This document shows, piece by piece, positions 11,321-31,610 of a DNA stretch of 31,610 nucleotides (position 1 is the first letter of the stretch; each line of letters starts with the position of its first letter). Location: positions 1-31,610 of the IMG/VR virus record IMGVR_UViG_3300030419_001559; one strand, given 5' to 3'. The stretch is from a virus. The notes under the pieces were generated by a model. The model was not told where the DNA came from. It made no database searches and saw nothing but the letters and a program-made list of their open reading frames with translations. The translations under genes were made by a program, and so were the position numbers.

Positions 11321-11594
11321 AAGATACGAGAAGCAGTTCGGTCCCAAGGCTGAGTGGGTACGAAGCCTAGACTGTCACACCTGTGGCAAGTGGGGCCCGA
11401 GTGACCCAGCCCACATGAGATCCCGTGGAGCCGGCGGAACGAGTGAACATCTGGTGCCCTTGTGTCGTGTGTGTCATATGAGGCAACACTCCAAAGGCAT
11501 CAAGACGTTCTTCAGGGAATACGGCGTGGACGATCACATGGCCTTGGCCAAAGAGTACCACGAGCGGTGGCTAGAAAGATCCCGACCTTCATAG
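11289..11594 (+). CDS. HNH endonuclease-like protein
   Basis: The product has up to 101 aa. The core CHTCGKWGPSDPAHM, GAGGTSEH and PLCRVCHMRQH contains two CxxC pairs and the paired histidines of an HNH/beta-beta-alpha-metal fold (SEHLVPLCRVCH as the HNH core). Small HNH proteins of this type nick or cleave DNA; in phages they act in packaging, recombination or as homing enzymes. The start is uncertain: GTG at 11289 overlaps the upstream gene, and TTG at 11298 is an alternative. Its stop codon overlaps the tmRNA-like 3' end on the other strand. Confidence 0.7.
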   Translation: MWLLARSSRTKRYEKQFGPKAEWVRSLDCHTCGKWGPSDPAHMRSRGAGGTSEHLVPLCRVCHMRQHSKGIKTFFREYGVDDHMALAKEYHERWLERSRPS

Positions 11595-11625
11595 TGGAGG
11601 CGGCGGGAATCGAACCCGCGTCCGC
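11592..11625 (-). other. tmRNA (ssrA) 3'-end-like sequence, possible attachment site
   Basis: Read on the minus strand, this stretch has GCGGAC, then a perfect five-base-pair T stem (GCGGG / CCCGC) with the T loop TTCGATT. It continues CGCCTCC-A-CTA, matching the usual tmRNA acceptor 3' end (CCTCC-A-CCA) except for one base. I see no matching GGAGGCG 5' acceptor strand and no tag-peptide module; the upstream minus-strand sequence is coding. It is therefore a fragment, not a working tmRNA. Phage integrases commonly use the 3' end of ssrA as attB, and the phage attP then carries such a copy. No integrase gene lies in this window. Confidence 0.55.
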
Positions 11626-11685
11626 TCCGTGCTCACAAGAGCCTTGCGAAGCGTCAAGACCTGTCACCCCCGTAACACCCACAAC

Positions 11686-17401: not shown

Positions 17402-18006
17402 TGGGCGGCCTCCCCTGTGTACCCTGCCATCAGTGACTTATAGCTGAATTTCTTGCCAAGAGCTTCTTCGATTCCGATTTGCTTCGGCTCAAAGCCAAGG
17501 ACCCCACCTTCTGGGTGCCTGTAATAGCAGACAGAACTGACAGTAGCCTTGCCGTACACAAACATCTTTCCGGTTTTCGTTAAGCGCCACATCCCAGACG
17601 AGCGCTTGTCCTGCTCGGGATCTTTAGGCATGCGCTCCATCAATCCCCAATACCTGAGTTTCGCGTAGTCCCCGCCACCGTTAATTGCACCTGAAGAAGG
17701 GATGTGGTGGTGCCACCGCGAACCATTGTGGGACTCCGAAGGCAACTGTTCGTGTCGCATGGAGTTTCTTTTGTTGTCCATGTATGCAAGCCAGCACAGA
17801 ACCCTGACGTACGAGCCCAGCTTGTAGGCGTAAACCTTACTCCTGCCCCCACAGAGGGCGCACTTGGAGACAGGTTGTCTCGACAACTCCCTAAGCTCTT
17901 CTAGGTCAAGGGTTTCAAGCGAATCACTCATAGTCGGCTCCTTGACCACATCGAATATAGATGTCTGTCTTGGGTCATTAAGCGCATCCTCCATCCACTC
18001 GGTCAT
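17398..18006 (-). CDS. Hypothetical protein with one zinc-ribbon pair
   Basis: The 202-aa product starts at an ATG with AGGAGAGGG upstream. The N-terminal third is acidic and Leu-rich; CALCGG at about residue 49 is a single CxxC. The middle and C-terminal part (GGGDYAKLRYWGLMERMP, then SGMWRLTKTGKMFVYGK) looks like a winged-helix unit with its wing, often seen in phage proteins of unknown role. It may therefore bind DNA or RNA. Its leader region carries the opposed small-RNA gene. Confidence 0.6.
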   Translation of the reverse strand: MTEWMEDALNDPRQTSIFDVVKEPTMSDSLETLDLEELRELSRQPVSKCALCGGRSKVYAYKLGSYVRVLCWLAYMDNKRNSMRHEQLPSESHNGSRWHHHIPSSGAINGGGDYAKLRYWGLMERMPKDPEQDKRSSGMWRLTKTGKMFVYGKATVSSVCYYRHPEGGVLGFEPKQIGIEEALGKKFSYKSLMAGYTGEAAQ

Positions 18007-18081
18007 TTCCTGCCCTCTCCTGGTGTAAGTTTAAAACCAAAAATATTTCTTACCGCCTGCGTGCTCGAACTTCCGCCGTTC

Positions 18082-18110
18082 TTGACTAGCCGTGCACCAA
18101 TCAATATTAT
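18082..18110 (+). promoter_or_regulatory. Strong sigma70-type promoter of the small RNA
   Basis: TTGACT, exactly 17 bases, TATTAT: five of six consensus bases in each box with ideal spacing. It points away from the surrounding minus-strand genes. Transcription should begin near the A at 18118. Confidence 0.75.
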
Positions 18111-18117
18111 TGGTACC

Positions 18118-18228
18118 ATGCTACGATCCTCCTCTCTCGTAGTGTGTGTGCAAAAAGAGAACGATTCCTCCTCGTTCCGCCCCTTGGCTAGTTAGTCAGG
18201 CTCCGACTCGCTACCCAAGGGGTTTTTT
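18118..18228 (+). ncRNA. Candidate small RNA with two anti-Shine-Dalgarno loops
   Basis: About 111 nt between a near-consensus promoter and an intrinsic terminator. Hairpin 1 (arms CTACGA 18121-18126 and TCGTAG 18137-18142) has the loop TCCTCCTCTC and extends by four more pairs, two of them G-U, which form only in this strand's RNA. Hairpin 2 (GAACGA 18159-18164, TCGTTC 18172-18177) has the loop TTCCTCC. Both loops therefore show CCUCC, complementary to the GGAGG sites before most genes here. Hairpin 3 is the terminator. An alternative reading is a leaderless 25-codon peptide from ATG 18118. It is antisense to the leader between two minus-strand genes. No known RNA family was recognised. Confidence 0.6.
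18180..18228 (+). terminator. Intrinsic terminator of the small RNA
   Basis: Arms CCCCTTGG (18180-18187) and CCAAGGGG (18215-18222), with inner pairs TAG/CTA and AGTC/GACT, are followed directly by TTTTTT. On the opposite strand no T run follows, so it acts on plus-strand transcripts. It overlaps the last codons of the YkgJ-like gene. Confidence 0.8.
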
Positions 18229-19845: not shown

Positions 19846-21105
19846 TTAGATTTTTACTACGGTGCCAAACAGCCTCGACGATCCGTTGTAAGTGTACGCT
19901 GGCGTTTCACATGTGGTCGCCCACAGAACAGGGTATGGTGGGCGCTTACAACTCACCGAACCAAAGCCGTCTGTGAAGTACACGAGAGCGCTAACATCTT
20001 TCTCTTTGCGGTTGTCTTTAATCCAATTGAAGATTGGAGTAAATGACGTACCGCCGCCCCCATGAACGTTCAGTTCCATGCACTCGGCACCCCTGCCGTT
20101 CTTGAGGTTGTACTCCCACCACGGGGTCCCAGTCTCGGGATTTATGTGAACGCGACTATCCACATAAGCAACCATGATCTTACTTATTCTGAGTCGCTTG
20201 GCTGTGACAACCATGGTCTGACGAGCCTTGTCAAAGTCATCCAGTCCCATTGATGCAGACGAATCGAACACACAGTAGAGTGTCTCGGCCCGCTTCTCGG
20301 CTGTTGGGATAAATATATCTTGGGACATCCATCTTTTATTGGGCCGCTTGAAGCTCCGGTAGCTCTTGACGCTCTTGGCCAACCACTTCTTCAGAATACT
20401 CAGGGATCGGGCGTCTCCGTAGTTACTCTCCTTGACCTTGGTAACCATGTCGCCGTCACCCAACCCCATCGCCCTCTCTTGAAGAGCGGCCTCCTCGACG
20501 CGCTCTAGAATTTGCTGTTCCAGTTCTGCCAACTCCTCCGGGGTGCCGTCGCACTCAGGCGCGTCCAGAATCTCACCAATGCAGTCCCCGTTATCCCCGG
20601 AGCCGTCATTCTCCCCCGGCTCTGTCCCGTCGCCACCGTTCTCCTCCTCCTCGGGGGGTTGCCAACCCTCGGCCAGAAGAATCTTGCACACCCGTTCGAC
20701 TGACCCGTCATAATTTTTATTCAGAACCTTGTGGTCCTCCGGCCACCGAATCCTGTTTTCGGGCAGAACAAAGTCTTTGTCTGGGCCATAATTTGCGCTT
20801 TGTATGATCCACTCGTTGATCACCATGTCGCATGCCACGTTCCACAGCTTTGGGTGGAAGTCTCCACGCCTTGTGTGGTGCAGGTTCGACACATGAAGCG
20901 CTTCATGGATGATGACACCCGCGACCTCACGATCACTCAGCGGGGCAACCCACTCCGGGTTGGCTAAGATTCTTGTCCCGTCAGTGGCCATGGTCCCTTC
21001 GTTCATCTCCTCAATAGGGAGACCACCCATCATGGTGTAGGCCCCAGGTGCGGCAGTAAATAATTTTGCCCTGATTTTCTTGATTCTTTGGACAGTACTG
21101 GACAT
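19846..21105 (-). CDS. Zincin-VWA protein (DUF2201-like metallopeptidase)
   Basis: The 419-aa product starts at an ATG with GGAGGGGGT upstream. The N-terminal half carries HEALHVSNLHH (about residues 67-77), the HExxHxxxxxH-type zinc site of a metallopeptidase, in the DUF2201 style. An acidic Glu/Gly/Asp linker (about 155-185) follows. The C-terminal half is a von Willebrand A-type domain with a full MIDAS: DSSAS (about 281-285), a Thr in GGGGTSF, and FTDG. MoxR ATPases act together with VWA proteins as chaperone-like remodelling pairs. The ATPase two genes upstream is thus its likely partner. Confidence 0.85.
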   Translation of the reverse strand: MSSTVQRIKKIRAKLFTAAPGAYTMMGGLPIEEMNEGTMATDGTRILANPEWVAPLSDREVAGVIIHEALHVSNLHHTRRGDFHPKLWNVACDMVINEWIIQSANYGPDKDFVLPENRIRWPEDHKVLNKNYDGSVERVCKILLAEGWQPPEEEENGGDGTEPGENDGSGDNGDCIGEILDAPECDGTPEELAELEQQILERVEEAALQERAMGLGDGDMVTKVKESNYGDARSLSILKKWLAKSVKSYRSFKRPNKRWMSQDIFIPTAEKRAETLYCVFDSSASMGLDDFDKARQTMVVTAKRLRISKIMVAYVDSRVHINPETGTPWWEYNLKNGRGAECMELNVHGGGGTSFTPIFNWIKDNRKEKDVSALVYFTDGFGSVSCKRPPYPVLWATTCETPAYTYNGSSRLFGTVVKI

Positions 21106-21114
21106 ACCCCCTCC

Positions 21115-22122
21115 TTAGTTAAGCCAATCGTCTAGTAGATCTGTCTTGGATTTACGAGCCACCTCAGCGATGTCCTGCAATGTCTCCTTGACCTCCTTCC
21201 TCATGGTGTCATCCTCTCCACTCAAGGCCTTACGAGCATCGGACAGGGACCCACCGCCAATCGCTTCGATCTTGCTCATAAGGTCGCGTGTCATGGACGC
21301 CGCTTGAGTAAGCTCTGCGTTCTCAAGAGCCGTGGTCCACTGCTCTGCCCTCTCGGCGGCGGCTTGGAGTTTTTGCCAACCCTTGGTCTTTGGCAACGAG
21401 TTCCCCGCCCGGCTGTCACCCTCATTGAAAACATATCCGTCGATACCGGCAATGATACCGTTGACCTCATCCATGATACTCTCGGCAACACTATTTACCG
21501 CATTGGATATTTTTCTTTCGGCCTCCAGCTTGGCGTCCGCTTTCATTCTCTCCATCACCTCTTCGGGATGGGATATGCGGATGTCACCCTCAATCCCACG
21601 GATGTCGTTGAGCGGTTTGATCCAGACCTTCCAACTGTAGCATTTGCGTAGCTCAGCCACGGGGATGAAGTAGTCTTGAAACCTGCCGTTGAGTTCAGTC
21701 AACGCCTCCGCTCTCATCCTGTCCCACTGGCTGAATAGTTCAGTCTCAAGAATCCGCTCCCACTCTTGGCGGAAACTGATCATCTTAGACTCATACTCAG
21801 ATATTTTACTAGCATCCAGCAGGTAGTCGGCGTTACTGATGCGCCCACCGTAATCGTTGTTCCTTGTGGTTGACCAAGGGACCGTCACGGACTTCATGTA
21901 GTTCCGCGCTCGTGCGACAACGGCGTTCAGCTTGCGCTGAACCACTTGGTCCATCACGACGACTTGGCCCCTAGTCTTGCTCTCCAGTATGCCCGTGGCC
22001 TCTGCACCTCCACGCGCAACATCTCTATCCGACTTGATCCCACCTCTCTGTGTCACCTCTAGACTTGTGAGACAAAAGGCCTTCCAGAGTTCTTTGATGT
22101 TGTCATCCAGATTGTCCTGCAT
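21115..22122 (-). CDS. Helical partner protein of the MoxR/VWA module (DUF3150-like)
   Basis: I take the ATG at 22122 (MQDNLDDNIKELW), with AAGGAGGAG upstream; 335 aa. It is almost entirely helical and highly charged, with coiled-coil stretches (KISEYESKMISFRQEWERILETEL; AKLEAERKISNAVNSVAESI) and a central WKVWIKPLNDIRG segment. Its place between the MoxR ATPase and the VWA protein, and its overall look, match the DUF3150 proteins I remember from similar phage clusters; this assignment is from memory and moderate. It probably links ATPase and VWA subunits. Confidence 0.6.
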   Translation of the reverse strand: MQDNLDDNIKELWKAFCLTSLEVTQRGGIKSDRDVARGGAEATGILESKTRGQVVVMDQVVQRKLNAVVARARNYMKSVTVPWSTTRNNDYGGRISNADYLLDASKISEYESKMISFRQEWERILETELFSQWDRMRAEALTELNGRFQDYFIPVAELRKCYSWKVWIKPLNDIRGIEGDIRISHPEEVMERMKADAKLEAERKISNAVNSVAESIMDEVNGIIAGIDGYVFNEGDSRAGNSLPKTKGWQKLQAAAERAEQWTTALENAELTQAASMTRDLMSKIEAIGGGSLSDARKALSGEDDTMRKEVKETLQDIAEVARKSKTDLLDDWLN

Positions 22123-22139
22123 TGTTACTCCTCCTTGGT

Positions 22140-23291
22140 TTAGAAACGAAAGTCTGCGCAACGACTCATGTGGCGACCCCACTCCACCTCTGAAGTCACA
22201 TCCTTATTCACTGCCTGTGCCATGTGGGCGAAGGTTACCTCCAACTCTTCCCCAAACAATTTGATAAACGGGAACAATTTATTTACTTGCGCCGGATCGC
22301 CCTTGACTCGCTTCGACAGCATCGCGGTCATGGAGCAGAGCGTCTGCCTACCGTTGTGGCTTACATCGTTCCTGATCCGTTCGATCTCAGACATGTGTCC
22401 GTCAGGGTCGTTGATCATGGCGTCAATGTCATCCAACCTTTCCATCGCCTTGTGCATCGCATACAGTTCCGTGCTTGCTTGGACACCGATGAAGCCCTCG
22501 GCAATACCCCTACCTAGGTTTGTGTCTAGATCTACCAATCCCGCGAGCATCAGATCGCTGAGCCGCTTAGCCTGCCTCGCGCAATTGAACGGCTGTCCCT
22601 CCACGGTACCTTTGTGGTGTTGAGTGAACAGCCACTCGTCCCCAAACGCTTTGGTGCAAGACACAATGAGTGGATGAAGCTCGCCTGCGTGGTAATTCAG
22701 GAATGAGTTGGAATCATTGCTTACCTCAATGATACACGCCCTCGACACCAGATCGGATTGCAAGTCCACTGACCCTGCATTGTCCTCCACCCTGTTGCCT
22801 GTTGCCACGATGCGCATACCGTCCGGCTTGATCCACGCATCACCCAATCGGCCCTCGTTCACGATGGACGCGACCGACTTGAAGTGCTCCTCTTCCTTGG
22901 CAACCTCATCCAACAAAAGCGTATTGTGAATAAGATTTTTTGGACCCCAAGTGTGGTCAGCGCCCGCAAGGAATGATGCGGCGATGGTTTCGTAGACGGT
23001 GCCCTCGTCTCCCCGTGTGAAGTTGGGGAACATCACCTCCTCCTTACCCTTCGCACTGATGTTGATGAAGGTGTAGGTGGGCGACCCGTCATGTGGGCGA
23101 TCAACGCTACTGTCGATAGGCTCCTCGCCTGTCTCGTCAACAGCCCTGCGCCTCACGATCTCCTTGGCGATGTCGGTCTTGCCTGCTCCGTTCCGACCAA
23201 GCAGGAGCACCGCAACGTCCTCCTTCAAGAGCATCACCCCGGCCTCAGTGGCCTCCTCGGGGCTCAGCTGTATCCTTGAAGTGTTCTTCAT
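22140..23291 (-). CDS. MoxR/CbbQ-like AAA+ ATPase
   Basis: The start is at the ATG at 23291 (MKNTSRIQL) with GGAGGAG eight bases upstream; 383 aa. Walker A GRNGAGKTD (about residues 32-40), Walker B TLLLDEVAKEEEH (about 123), and sensor 1 IVATGNRVED (about 159) are present, with Arg residues (LVSRACIIEV) in the arginine-finger region. MoxR-type ATPases form rings that remodel or insert cofactors into partners together with VWA proteins, and both partner genes follow directly. Its leader has a copy of the dispersed palindrome. Confidence 0.85.
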   Translation of the reverse strand: MKNTSRIQLSPEEATEAGVMLLKEDVAVLLLGRNGAGKTDIAKEIVRRRAVDETGEEPIDSSVDRPHDGSPTYTFINISAKGKEEVMFPNFTRGDEGTVYETIAASFLAGADHTWGPKNLIHNTLLLDEVAKEEEHFKSVASIVNEGRLGDAWIKPDGMRIVATGNRVEDNAGSVDLQSDLVSRACIIEVSNDSNSFLNYHAGELHPLIVSCTKAFGDEWLFTQHHKGTVEGQPFNCARQAKRLSDLMLAGLVDLDTNLGRGIAEGFIGVQASTELYAMHKAMERLDDIDAMINDPDGHMSEIERIRNDVSHNGRQTLCSMTAMLSKRVKGDPAQVNKLFPFIKLFGEELEVTFAHMAQAVNKDVTSEVEWGRHMSRCADFRF

Positions 23292-23421
23292 TTCTACTCC
23301 TCCAGTAGAAGGGGGGGGGAAATTTTTTCCCCCTCCGTGGAACATCCTCTCAAACTTTCTACTAAATCTAAATCAAATTTATTTTTTGTCCAGTCTCCAT
23401 ATCCAGGGGGGTGAGATTTGA
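23292..23421 (-). promoter_or_regulatory. Leader of the MoxR gene with possible promoter
   Basis: No gene is seen in this A+T-rich stretch. On the minus strand TGGACA (23387-23392), 16 bases, TAGATT (23365-23370) could be a promoter, with a start near 23358. The palindrome at 23315-23333 would then lie in the untranslated leader, 25-43 bases into the RNA. A 67-aa frame across this stretch has no SD and is not supported. Confidence 0.4.
23315..23333. repeat. Dispersed palindrome, copy 1
   Basis: GGGGG-AAA-TTT-TTT-CCCCC with extra G on the left. It lies in the leader of the MoxR-like ATPase gene. Confidence 0.8.
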
Positions 23422-28234: not shown

Positions 28235-28263
28235 TTGACCTAACAAATCCCTAATGATATCAT
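28235..28263 (+). promoter_or_regulatory. Sigma70-type promoter of the small terminase gene
   Basis: TTGACC, 17 bases, TATCAT: five of six consensus bases in the -35 and four to five in the -10 box. The predicted transcription start (about 28269-28271) falls on the ATG of the gene. Confidence 0.65.
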
Positions 28264-28268
28264 GCTGT

Positions 28269-28709
28269 ATGCCTAACCCACCCACGATTACGCCTAAGCA
28301 GTCTGCTTTCGCAGGCTTTGTAGCGAAGGGACACTCCTACGCGGAGGCCTATCGTAAGGCGTACGATGCGAGCAAGATGAGCAAGCAGGTGGTGTGGAAC
28401 AACAGCTCCAAGCTCGCCAAGAATCCACGGGTGAAGGAAGCTATCGAAGCGCTCAAGTCTGACACCAAGGTAGCGAAGCAAGCGCACGAAAAGCTAAGCA
28501 ACGACTGGATTATCCAGAAGCTCAGGGCCGAAGCCGTAGACGGAAACAACTCCCCGTCCAACAGGATCAGGGCACTTGAACTACTAGGTAAGGCGGGGGG
28601 ACTGTTCGAAGAATCTACCCACGTCACGTTCGAGAACCGGTCATCAGACGACCTAGAGAAAGAGCTGATGGACAAGCTCGCCATGTGGTCGTCAGCTAGT
28701 AAGGCATAG
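28269..28709 (+). CDS. Small terminase subunit (TerS) candidate
   Basis: I take the ATG at 28269 (MPNPPTITPKQ), 146 aa; an ATG five codons upstream lies in the -10 box. The N-terminal TPKQSAFAGFVAKGHSYAEAYRKAYDASKMS is the typical helix-turn-helix of small terminase subunits of the 'terminase_2' kind, followed by VWNNSSKLAKNPRVKEAIEAL. The C-terminal part (NRIRALELLGKAGGLFEE) is also seen in such proteins. It recognises the packaging site and loads the large subunit. No large subunit follows in this window, which is unusual. A leaderless mRNA is implied by the promoter position. Confidence 0.75.
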   Translation: MPNPPTITPKQSAFAGFVAKGHSYAEAYRKAYDASKMSKQVVWNNSSKLAKNPRVKEAIEALKSDTKVAKQAHEKLSNDWIIQKLRAEAVDGNNSPSNRIRALELLGKAGGLFEESTHVTFENRSSDDLEKELMDKLAMWSSASKA

Positions 28710-28766: not shown

Positions 28767-28843
28767 AAAAACCTCACCTAACCCAAAGCCTTGGCGACCC
28801 GTACCTCATCCTGCCCCCTCTAGATGGGGGTACTACTAAGCAA

Positions 28844-28863: not shown

Positions 28864-28895
28864 CATTGCGCCGACCCGTACCTCAACGCGACCCT

Positions 28896-29153: not shown

Positions 29154-30047
29154 TTACTCGTTGTCCGCCGAGGACGGGATGAGTTGCTCTTCCGGGATCA
29201 CCATGGCCCGGATTTCTTTGATGTCAGACGCGGCCTTGGACTGCGCCCTCTGGTGGATGATCCTGTGAGCGTCGATCTTGGCGTTGGCCTCCTTCAGCGG
29301 CATGGGGGGAAGGAGCACGATTTCGGTGTCGTACTCCCTGTCCTTGCCGCCCCAGCGGATGGTCGTGGTCTTGGTGCCGTCTTCGTGCTCGGTCCACTCG
29401 TAGTCGGACACCTTGCCTCGGAGGAGCCAGATGTCGGAAGGGTGGCCCACCGGGTGCCCAACGGGCACCTTGGTGTTGTCCATGTGGTAGTTCACGACCC
29501 TTCCGGCAACCTCGCTAACCTTCGCCCACTTGGACCTGACCCCGTTGGCGTCCAGCCTCAGGATCGCCCTGACATCCGTGGCCATATCCGGGAACTGAAG
29601 GGACCAGAAGATGTTGCGGATGTCGTCGGCCTTGTTCAGGATGTTCTGCCGGGCCGCCTTCCCGTAGTCGCTCCGGCTTCTGGGCTTCTGCTCCCGGTCC
29701 GTCTTGAGACAGCCGTGCTTCTTGTCCCAGTCGTACTGGGCCTTACCGGCCTCGCGAGTCCTCTTACGGAGGTCGAAGTACAGGTCGTTACGAGCGGCTC
29801 GAACTGAGGCCCAGCCATCGTCGTCCTTGCCGAACTTGGCCTTGGGCTGGTGGTCCTTCGTCAGGAGGGTGTCAATCGCCTCCGTGAGGATCGCCTGGAG
29901 GTAGTTCGAGGCGTTTCCATCAAGGCCCACGATGGAGGATCGGGCCATCCCCAGACTTGTGGATGCGTCGATGAACGCGGCTCTGGACTCGCGAGTCGCG
30001 TCGTTGACTGCGAGTACTGCGGCCTTCTGGGATGCTTCGTTACTCAT
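29154..30047 (-). CDS. Hypothetical 297-aa protein, GC-rich gene
   Basis: The start is at the ATG at 30047 (MSNEASQKAAV), with GAGGAGT six bases upstream. The protein is charged and helical in its first half (WASVRAARNDLYFDLRKRTREAG), and has VPVGHPVGHPSDIWLLRGKVSDYEW with a duplicated VGHP in the middle. A strand-rich part follows (TKTTTIRWGGKDREYDTEIVLLPP), then an acidic tail. No family recognised. Base composition is clearly higher in G+C than the long minus-strand operon, and the gene has its own hairpin leader and terminator. It looks like a separately acquired, independently expressed unit. Confidence 0.65.
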   Translation of the reverse strand: MSNEASQKAAVLAVNDATRESRAAFIDASTSLGMARSSIVGLDGNASNYLQAILTEAIDTLLTKDHQPKAKFGKDDDGWASVRAARNDLYFDLRKRTREAGKAQYDWDKKHGCLKTDREQKPRSRSDYGKAARQNILNKADDIRNIFWSLQFPDMATDVRAILRLDANGVRSKWAKVSEVAGRVVNYHMDNTKVPVGHPVGHPSDIWLLRGKVSDYEWTEHEDGTKTTTIRWGGKDREYDTEIVLLPPMPLKEANAKIDAHRIIHQRAQSKAASDIKEIRAMVIPEEQLIPSSADNE

Positions 30048-30057
30048 ACTGACTCCT

Positions 30058-30073
30058 CGGGGTTGAGACCCCG
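30058..30073 (-). promoter_or_regulatory. Hairpin abutting the SD of the 297-aa gene
   Basis: On the minus strand CGGGGU-CUCA-ACCCCG is followed directly by AGGAGU and, four bases later, the ATG. The same arrangement is at 30464-30479. Confidence 0.7.
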
Positions 30074-30086
30074 TTGAGTTGAAGGT

Positions 30087-30111
30087 GACTGCGGGGCGAA
30101 TCCCCACAGTC
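30087..30111 (-). other. Leader hairpin upstream of the 297-aa gene
   Basis: GACUG-U-GGGG / CCCC-G-CAGUC with loop AUUCG on the minus strand. The U-G pair supports minus-strand RNA. No U run follows, so it is probably part of the leader. Confidence 0.6.
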
Positions 30112-30116
30112 GCACG

Positions 30117-30149
30117 AGAAAAGCCACCCAACCCGAAGGCTGGGTGGCT
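30117..30149 (-). terminator. Intrinsic terminator of the 96-aa gene
   Basis: On the minus strand AGCCACCCA-GCC / GGU-UGGGUGGCU closes a UUCG tetraloop with a C-G pair and is followed by UUUUC. The tetraloop on this strand confirms the direction. Confidence 0.85.
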
Positions 30150-30162
30150 AAACCTCGCAAGG

Positions 30163-30453
30163 CTAGAAGGGCAGGTCGTCCTCCAGATCGTCGTCGTCGT
30201 CAGCGGCGAAAGGGTCCGGCCACGGATTGCGGTGGATGGCGGAGGACGCCTCGTACTCCTCACCGATCCTCGCGTTCTCCCGCGCAACCTCCTGGGCGAC
30301 GGGATCGCAGGGCCAGCAGACCTCCTCGAATTGGACGTGGACGAAGCGCTTTCCGCCCTCCCGCACGCGGAACTCCTCGGCCATCGGATCTTCTTCGATG
30401 TGGGACTCGGTGGCCACGCCGCACTTCGGGCAAGTCTGAACTTCGATAATCAT
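30163..30453 (-). CDS. Zinc-ribbon protein with SSB-like acidic tail
   Basis: The 96-aa product starts at an ATG with GAGGAGT upstream and a hairpin directly before the SD. CPKCG and CWPC (residues 8-11 and 46-49) make one zinc ribbon. The C-terminus DDDDDLEDDLPF ends like the tip of bacterial SSB proteins (DDDIPF). A single-strand-binding or SSB-partner-mimicking role is therefore possible. The body between ribbon and tail (FVHVQFEEVCWPCDPVAQEVAREN) matches no family I know. Confidence 0.65.
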   Translation of the reverse strand: MIIEVQTCPKCGVATESHIEEDPMAEEFRVREGGKRFVHVQFEEVCWPCDPVAQEVARENARIGEEYEASSAIHRNPWPDPFAADDDDDLEDDLPF

Positions 30454-30463
30454 TCTTACTCCT

Positions 30464-30479
30464 CGGGGTCAAAACCCCG
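30464..30479 (-). promoter_or_regulatory. Hairpin abutting the SD of the 96-aa gene
   Basis: On the minus strand CGGGGU-UUUG-ACCCCG is followed directly by AGGAGU and the ATG. Same stem and spacing as at 30058-30073, with a different loop. Confidence 0.7.
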
Positions 30480-30969
30480 GTCGGGTAGGCTCTGGTGCGC
30501 TCTCGCTCCAGAGATGGATCAAGGGAAATCGGCCACCGCCCTTGGCGGCAAGATATGTCAAGGTATGCTTCACCGCCTTGACATGTCTTGGATTTGTGTA
30601 TTCGCGTGCTTCAAGCGGTAGCTTGAAAGCATCGCACACAAATCTGGTAACGCCATGGGACTTGCCGCAGGTCCCCTGCGGTGAGCCGGCGCTTGGATGG
30701 ATTTGATGTAGTTATCAAAGCCATCCAATTCGCCGCCTCATTCGACTCCGCTCAGGATGAGTTGTTCTTTAGTCCTAAGAACAACTCATCCGTGCATGAC
30801 ATGGTTAAACAATCTCGAACGAGATTGTTTAGCCACCGATTTAAATTGAGGCATCTGTGGAGAGAGAGAGGAAAAAAATCAAATCAATCAACTAAAATAA
30901 GCAAAGGTTGATTTTTTTTGGATAATGCGACACCAAACATGTGGCGCATTATCCACCCGAAGGGCCACT

Positions 30970-31053
30970 ATGAAGCATTTCATCGTTCTCCCGATAGCCG
31001 ATGGCTTCGAGGTAGTTATCGAAGACATCTCTGTGCTGTCGGTAGGACGATGA
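30970..31053 (+). CDS. Possible 27-aa peptide inside the hairpin array
   Basis: ATG to TGA encodes MKHFIVLPIADGFEVVIEDI plus seven residues. The segment DGFEVVIEDI repeats DGFDVVIKAI, which can be read in the plus strand at 30696-30725, and three of the five base changes are at third codon positions. There is no good SD, and the same bases form a hairpin, so this may be structure and not a gene. Confidence 0.2.
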   Translation: MKHFIVLPIADGFEVVIEDISVLSVGR

Positions 31054-31072
31054 AGGTGCTGTGGTGGGGGAA

Positions 31073-31167
31073 GAATTCCTTACTGCAATCTTAGCTCCGA
31101 AATTGACTCATCGCTGGGGGGAAATCTTTTCCCCCCACCTGCGCGGAGCTTAGATTGCCAGGAATTC
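31073..31167. repeat. Nested inverted repeat enclosing palindrome copy 9
   Basis: Outer arms GAATTCCT (31073-31080) and AGGAATTC (31160-31167). Middle arms CAATCTTAGCTCCG (31085-31098) and CGGAGCTTAGATTG (31144-31157), with one mismatch. In the centre is GGGGGG-AAATCTTTT-CCCCCC (31116-31136). Together they could extrude as one long cruciform or fold as one RNA. Confidence 0.85.
31116..31136. repeat. Dispersed palindrome, copy 9 (in hairpin apex)
   Basis: GGGGGG-AAA-TCT-TTT-CCCCCC, at the apex of the nested inverted repeat. Confidence 0.85.
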
Positions 31168-31431
31168 GCGTGGTGGTGGGTTCCTGTATGTCGGGCAACG
31201 CCCGACTGCTGTTGGGGTGGTAGAACTAACCCTGTTCACTAGAACAGGGTTGGCCGAACAATTCCGAAGAAAGACAGGAGAGCAACTCGGTGCGATGCCC
31301 TAAGGCATTTCGAGATAGTACAGGGGTGTTGGGTGTGGGGCGGGTACTAGCTCGAACTGAAAGCGCACCGTTGGGCTCGGATGGATTTCGCAGGGGTTGT
31401 TCGGGGGTGGTGGGGCGCTGTGTCCTGTTAA

Positions 31432-31477
31432 GGGTCTACCCTAGGGGGGGGTAGTATCCCCCCAGTGGGGTAGACCC
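31432..31477. repeat. Two-tier inverted repeat
   Basis: Outer arms GGGTCTACCC (31432-31441) and GGGTAGACCC (31468-31477) are perfect. Inner arms are a run of eight G and a run of six C around TAGTAT. Confidence 0.8.
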
Positions 31478-31579
31478 CCCTCTGCGCTTCGCGCCGCTGT
31501 TTTATATATAAACAGTGTTTTGCACATTCTACCACCAATTTTTGATAATGTCACGGCCCCGTTTAGTTTTTGTCACACA

Positions 31580-31610
31580 ACCTAGTATTATCTATATAGA
31601 TTTACTAGGT
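31580..31610. repeat. Imperfect palindrome at the window edge
   Basis: Arms ACCTAGTA (31580-31587) and TACTAGGT (31603-31610) enclose the inner palindrome ATCTATATAGAT. The right arm ends exactly on the last base of the window. Confidence 0.75.

Follow-up and report, generated by a model that had tools for sequence, protein, structure and literature searches.

Structured RNAs encoded by phages

To our knowledge, the large RNAs of phages described so far were discovered through conserved sequence and structure. The phage RNA known as phi29 pRNA, 174 nt in length, is tied to packaging. GOLLD is a very structured phage and prophage RNA of more than 800 nt, one part of which is more variable, and ROOL is a large ornate phage RNA whose function is unknown (PMC12286853). 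A feature of ROOL and GOLLD is the homo-oligomeric RNA cage. In staphylococcal phages, the structured cabRNAs belong to the terS/terL area; their sequences are unrelated among phages and all form hairpins, and they are sensed by CBASS cyclases, which cabRNA binds and activates, and cabRNA is a molecular player in immunity (PMC10686824). Here, we analyzed a locus in the IMG/VR virus record IMGVR_UViG_3300030419_001559, which is 31,610 bases long and lacks end repeats; its whole length is called the window below. The locus belongs to a group of uncultured marine phages, and the results point to an element, RNA (or single-stranded), that has not been described before and whose action depends on its shape, not its sequence.

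A kilobase of consecutive hairpins

The initial annotation had described positions 30480-31500 as a chain of unrelated hairpins and had suggested that its folding be compared with shuffled sequence on both strands. With 40 dinucleotide shuffles per strand, both strands fell far below the shuffles: the minimum free energy (MFE) was −514.2 kcal/mol for the plus strand, compared to −361 ± 8.6 for its shuffles (z = −17.7), and −437.4 kcal/mol for the minus strand, compared to −306 ± 8.8 (z = −14.9). The chain of hairpins was borne out by the MFE fold, which contains 24 hairpin loops, has 72% of its bases paired, and reaches 16 pairs in its longest uninterrupted helix. The six most folded 300-nt segments of the record's plus strand all lie within this region. 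Near-perfect arms of 15 to 20 nt are found at 30549/30576, 30755/30777, 30802/30820, 30919/30941, and 31432/31458, and the T·G pair reported for the stem at 30802-30835 is present. As the annotation had stated, the arms do not represent a single repeat in several copies; two hairpins, at 30696-30725 and 31000-31029 on the plus strand, are 83% alike and have the identical loop GTAGTTATC, and stem differences between the window and its relative L004 in the second copy include double changes.

The chain also contains long-range helices that close sub-domains. On the plus strand, the closing helix of domain I is formed by 26 pairs between its 5′ strand (30500-30532) and its 3′ strand (30836-30868), the latter carrying the conserved sequence CTGTGGAGAGAGAG, while a branched sub-domain at 31254-31404 is closed by 22 pairs between 31254-31283 and 31375-31404 and is absent in L004. 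The plus-strand hairpin at 30549-30590 bears the conserved loop GGTATGCTWCACCGCC on variable stems in the window, L004, and L018, and the same loop occurs at the apex of the rods of L029 and L036 (see below). An A-run/T-run hairpin at 30869-30919 (plus), terminator-like on either strand, is also found in L018 and L019 and is absent in L004. The last hairpin of the chain, a G-run/C-run terminal hairpin at 31432-31477 (plus), stands at a fixed distance from the conserved element described below.

Relatives with the same locus

Relatives were gathered from IMG/VR by searches with the orphan protein encoded beside the chain, TerS, TerL, and the conserved element. Beside the window, about 12 further distinct contigs carry the locus: L004, L018, L019 (=L023), L013 (=L022), L017, L034, L028, L033, L115, L027 (with the near-identical L031 and L118), L029 (=L030), and L036 (with L037). 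Their TerL proteins, where present, share about 85% identity or more within the group, and identity to TerL of isolates is at most 58%, the nearest being 023Pt_psg01, DSL-LC04, and the Pelagibacter phages HTVC027P and HTVC023P. The locus lies between a minus-strand gene of about 300 aa and the conserved element, upstream of the TerL gene. From the minus-strand start codon to the element, the gap measures about 0.5 to 1.06 kb in members, and its plus strand yielded z-scores of −6.1 to −17.3 in 12 members (20 shuffles each). Two more distant phages that have the element and a TerL of 79-80% identity, L053 and L058, showed absent or weak folding (z of +1.2 and −3.4). The cultured phage HTVC027P (L103, MN698241.1) has a weaker hairpin cluster at L103 positions 2165-2712 (z of −4.4 on the plus and −3.7 on the minus strand), where diverging genes upstream of TerL leave a gap of 548 nt; this analogous gap corresponds to 17,670-18,219 in record MN698241. 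By blastn, the region matched nothing in GenBank phages or PLSDB plasmids.

Sequence turns over while pairing is kept

The contrast between the folded part and its surroundings is clearest in L018, L022, and L023, in which TerS is 95-98%, the element 99-100%, and the next 800 bp downstream 94-98% identical, whereas the chains are 41-48% identical, compared to 43% for shuffled sequence. The window and L004 are closer, with 94% identity over aligned parts and about 400 nt missing in L004. Architecture varies as well: some members have a single rod of about 500 nt in place of the chain, as is the case for L029 and L036, which are 67% identical and each fold into one rod, that of L036 measuring 571 nt with an MFE of −336.7 kcal/mol (z = −20.9). 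What persists among the chains is a G-run/C-run or C-rich terminal hairpin at a fixed distance from the element. CTGTGGAGAGAGAG is kept in the window, L004, L019, and L017 and is present as a variant in L018. Exact matches to AGGTATGCTWCACCGCCT in IMG/VR fell in family contigs in five of six cases; the sixth, in L154, was discarded because the loop match there lies within a protein-coding gene, in a phage that is not related.

We then compared the pairing itself. In five sequences, the helix that closes domain I has a core of 11 pairs whose strands are about 230 to 370 nt apart; 90.9% of the cells pair, and 4 of the 11 pairs are changed on both sides. Its covariation score of 0.409, obtained from strands aligned without gaps around the helix and hence biased towards structure, exceeds the 0.146 of shuffles, of which 1 in 500 scored as high, and the 0.03-0.11 of slid partners. 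In the rods of L029 and L036, with the L036 structure placed on the alignment, 17 of 256 pairs are changed on both sides, compared to 1 to 6 in slid controls. The closing helix and the rod pairs covary, and relatives keep both the pairing and the region, the loss of which the initial annotation had named as refuting its reading. Folding far beyond chance coincides with covarying pairs, as in a large structured phage noncoding RNA. From this we infer selection for the folded state, together with a few loops.

Palindromes might also have accumulated neutrally or selfishly, with templated repair of quasi-palindromes maintaining them and without any molecular function; this would account for the unusually perfect stems and for indels that ignore helix borders. 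The four indels between the window and L004 avoid helices no more than random placement would, which also speaks against the explanation we favor below; modular exchange of hairpins between these two is not claimed. We nevertheless consider a neutral origin very unlikely, given the fixed location and orientation of the locus over diverged phages, the covarying long-range helix and rod, the shared loops, and a strand bias.

Strand of the folded molecule

This bias was measured in helices defined with G·T disallowed on both strands, so that the count is strand-neutral. Inside helices, single mismatches comprise 54 G·T versus 12 A·C, and at helix ends 140 versus 56; relative to composition, the G·T excess inside helices has a P value of 1e-5 (4e-4 with one member per group), and that at helix ends 8e-4. 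The same count in Escherichia coli 16S and 23S rRNA gave 1:0, too few mismatches for calibration. One-sided changes between relatives lean to G·T, as read from poor alignments, and those between the rods are near even, with 14 to G·T and 12 to A·C on the plus-strand fold. The MFE is lower on the plus strand in 12 of 12 members, composition accounting for part of the difference. Because the mean z-scores of plus and minus strand differ little across members, the argument for the plus strand rests on the wobble counts, and strand-biased mutation could mimic the G·T excess. Altogether, there is moderate evidence for a single-stranded plus-strand molecule, more likely RNA than DNA. We accordingly place the body of the proposed structured RNA at 30480-31500 on the plus strand, from its MFE and z-score, the z-scores of −6 to −17 in relatives, and the excess of G·T over A·C.

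A conserved element at the right end of the record

Downstream of the chain, a conserved single-copy element with an AT-rich stretch occupies 31506-31610, with no strand assigned; it contains AACAGTGTTTTGCACAT at 31511-31527 and is 92-100% identical in close relatives. Its consensus reads AACA[GC]TGTTTTGCACAT, and its core is present in 16 aligned loci. The window record ends within this conserved 105-bp element, stopping exactly at an inverted repeat, ACCTAGTA..TACTAGGT (ACCTAGTATTATCTATATAGATTTACTAGGT), at 31580-31610. Past the inverted repeat, relatives continue with an AT-rich tract containing AGATTATCTA-like repeats, then late genes. A role as a repeated phage promoter was rejected, as there is one copy per genome; pairing of the element back to the chain was not supported (mean z of −0.7 versus shuffled chains); and 27 matches to the element in bacterial genomes fit chance in number and hosts, with three sequences looked at. 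In L115, a tRNA-Asn gene lies on the opposite strand just past the element (L115:2414-2486).

A conserved single-copy element followed by an AT-rich tract of repeated units would also suit the initiator part of a single-strand initiation or replication origin, in which the chain would act as single-stranded or extruded DNA. The strand bias is compatible with such an origin, since G·T is stable in single-stranded DNA too. We regard it as quite unlikely: the folded part is replaced wholesale, whereas origins are usually conserved in sequence, and closing helices that span 230 to 370 nt fit RNA better. GC skew, moreover, tracks the strand of the genes and not the distance from the hairpin region, and it was rejected as a replication signal.

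The element also harbors the best promoter match found, a promoter-like site on the minus strand at 31526-31554 (GTGACA-17-TAGAAT; read from 31554 to 31526, 10 of 12 positions with TG) that reads back into the chain and was identified by consensus match only. No sigma70-like promoter was found on the plus strand just upstream of the chain, which weighs against the plus-strand RNA favored below. The chain could be a giant structured 5′ leader of the minus-strand orphan gene(s): transcription would begin at the element and cross the chain before reaching the start codon, and the folds would control mRNA expression or stability. Among the rivals, this one is the strongest, given that the chain spans the distance from a promoter-like site to the start codon; in the members examined, it fills the gap between element and minus-strand start codon exactly. 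Minus-strand terminators are found downstream of both the small and the large minus-strand genes, and in HTVC027P, gp33 and gp34, the minus-strand genes that adjoin the corresponding gap, are set apart as a separate class by their expression (PMC12753301). Still, a leader appears unlikely: the 54:12 ratio of G·T to A·C is opposite to what a minus-strand RNA predicts, the lower plus-strand MFE in all 12 members, partly a matter of composition, points the same way, and the promoter hexamers are not the best-conserved bases of the element.

Neighboring genes

The left flank is formed by the gene for the terminase small subunit, TerS (28254-28709, plus; PHROG 51, E = 6.6e-14), whose protein is 93-98% identical in close relatives and 82-98% across members. 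Two minus-strand genes follow: a fast-evolving orphan gene of 297 aa (29154-30047), which adjoins the chain in relatives, and a small gene of 96 aa (30163-30453), present only in some relatives between the chain and the orphan gene. In a 61.6-kb relative, G001 (L013), the element is followed by the AT-rich tract, a short lipoprotein-like ORF, a 148-aa ORF, a 77-aa ORF, and TerL, all on the plus strand; TerL starts about 0.3 to 1 kb past the element in relatives.

Identity between the window's orphan protein and its homologues is 19-53%. Its AlphaFold2 model is confident (pLDDT of 87.5) and has no fold match, so the protein gives no functional hint: it had no Pfam match and no PDB profile match, Foldseek against PDB and BFVD returned no match below an E value of 0.07, and the best VIA-align hit (Z = 6.2), to a helical design, was uninformative. 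The pI ranges from 5.7 to 9.3 among members and is thus not consistently basic, which weighs against the explanation favored below. The partner gene in L029, of the rod type shared with L036, was not detected as a member of the orphan-gene family, and gp33 of HTVC027P had no detectable relation to the orphan protein. Both minus-strand genes of the window carry the same small hairpin, CGGGGTY(T/C)(T/G)ACCCCG, immediately before the ribosome-binding site GAGGAGT (30464-30479 and 30060-30075).

The initial annotation had also offered a packaging region near the terminase gene. The proximity holds, TerS lying at 28254-28709 and TerL downstream in relatives, where the chain sits between the two; no sign of a packaging role was seen. 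We regard a packaging-motor RNA like phi29 pRNA, or a cos or pac region, as most improbable because the terminase proteins hardly vary: TerS and TerL keep 91-98% identity beside folded parts of unrelated sequence, and a specific contact during packaging would not tolerate this. The repeat CGACCCGTACCTC just after TerS is a better candidate for a TerS site.

Among small hairpins just after TerS, the motif CGACCCGTACCTCA is repeated at 28796-28812 and 28872-28890, with at least two copies in each of L004, L013, L017, L018, L019, and L027. It is a candidate TerS/packaging or regulatory site.

Other features of the window

A complete 80-nt tRNA-like domain of tmRNA lies at 11592-11671 on the minus strand (RF00023, 58.7 bits, E = 1.5e-22). 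Here, 17 nt replace the mRNA-like part of about 310 nt; the acceptor stem looks intact, with a G3·U70 wobble, and the 3′ end is CCACTA. The locus may be a mini-tmRNA of the phage that acts in ribosome rescue, or else a remnant or attachment site. Seven related records contained no RF00023 match over the family cutoff. At 19846-23345 (minus), genes for a DUF2201 metallopeptidase/VWA protein and an AAA ATPase (PHROG 1314 and 1297) stand side by side with an unassigned 355-aa gene in between.

A proposed role in antagonism

Turnover of sequence of the kind seen in the chain is typical of antagonistic interactions. Because this turnover is fast and takes place beside near-identical flanks, and because cabRNA offers the nearest functional precedent, we favor a plus-strand, structure-dependent, protein-binding RNA that evolves in an arms race alongside the neighboring orphan protein, a tentative reading to which we give slightly less than an even chance. 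A noncoding RNA would be read from the plus strand, towards TerS and TerL, and would fold into a compact, mostly double-stranded body, either a hairpin chain in domains or a single rod of about 500 nt. Its function would require intense folding, a few loops, and a closing helix rather than its overall sequence, and it would evolve very fast in concert with the adjacent orphan gene, between nearly unchanged flanks. Under antagonistic selection, the RNA may bind a protein, be it a host factor, a defense sensor, or the orphan protein, and would act as a decoy, a shield, or an RNP with the orphan protein. Transcription of the region, protein binding, and the decoy or RNP role are what we infer from comparing sequences.

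A bolder version, possible but doubtful, is a viral RNA class that keeps only its intense foldedness, in which sequence, loops, and architecture (chain or rod of about 200 bp) all turn over, serving as an arms-race decoy or shield with a co-evolving orphan protein. If true, this would be something new. A decoy or RNP would represent an RNA-based, fast-evolving player in the conflict between marine phages and their hosts. As folding is kept while sequence is swapped wholesale in near-identical phages, searches based on conservation, such as Rfam and blastn, miss the locus.

Comparison with known RNAs

The initial annotation had proposed a large structured plus-strand RNA of GOLLD/ROOL size. The large plus-strand RNA is the best-supported reading, given that relatives keep region and pairing, helices covary, and wobbles favor the plus strand; the identification with GOLLD or ROOL does not stand. 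At the gathering score, GOLLD and ROOL were found neither in the window nor in 11 relatives, and no Rfam family matched the hairpin region; at E ≤ 10, positions 29900-31610 of the window gave no GOLLD or ROOL match and only sub-threshold microRNA-precursor hairpins, none of them credible. Primary sequence and architecture are also unconserved, unlike those of GOLLD and ROOL.

Compared to phi29 pRNA, which belongs to a phi29-type genome with another packaging system, the comparison here was made via Rfam only. The locus resembles cabRNA as a structured phage RNA of the terS/terL area with sequences unrelated between phages, but cabRNA consists of about 400 nt of coding sequence within terS/terL, whereas the hairpin chain is a dedicated intergenic element outside both genes. 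With GOLLD it shares being a large, very structured phage RNA; however, GOLLD has a 3′ region conserved in sequence and structure, whereas the chains of L018, L022, and L023 align no better than a shuffled sequence does, and what the hairpin loci have in common is limited to the element and the terminal hairpin. A single secondary structure characterizes ROOL, whereas the hairpin locus switches between chain and rod. GOLLD and ROOL are encoded near tRNAs, whereas no tRNA was found in the window and, among 14 loci scanned, only L115 has one. Within the large structured phage RNAs, the locus would be a new variant that differs from both GOLLD and ROOL in each of the features tested.
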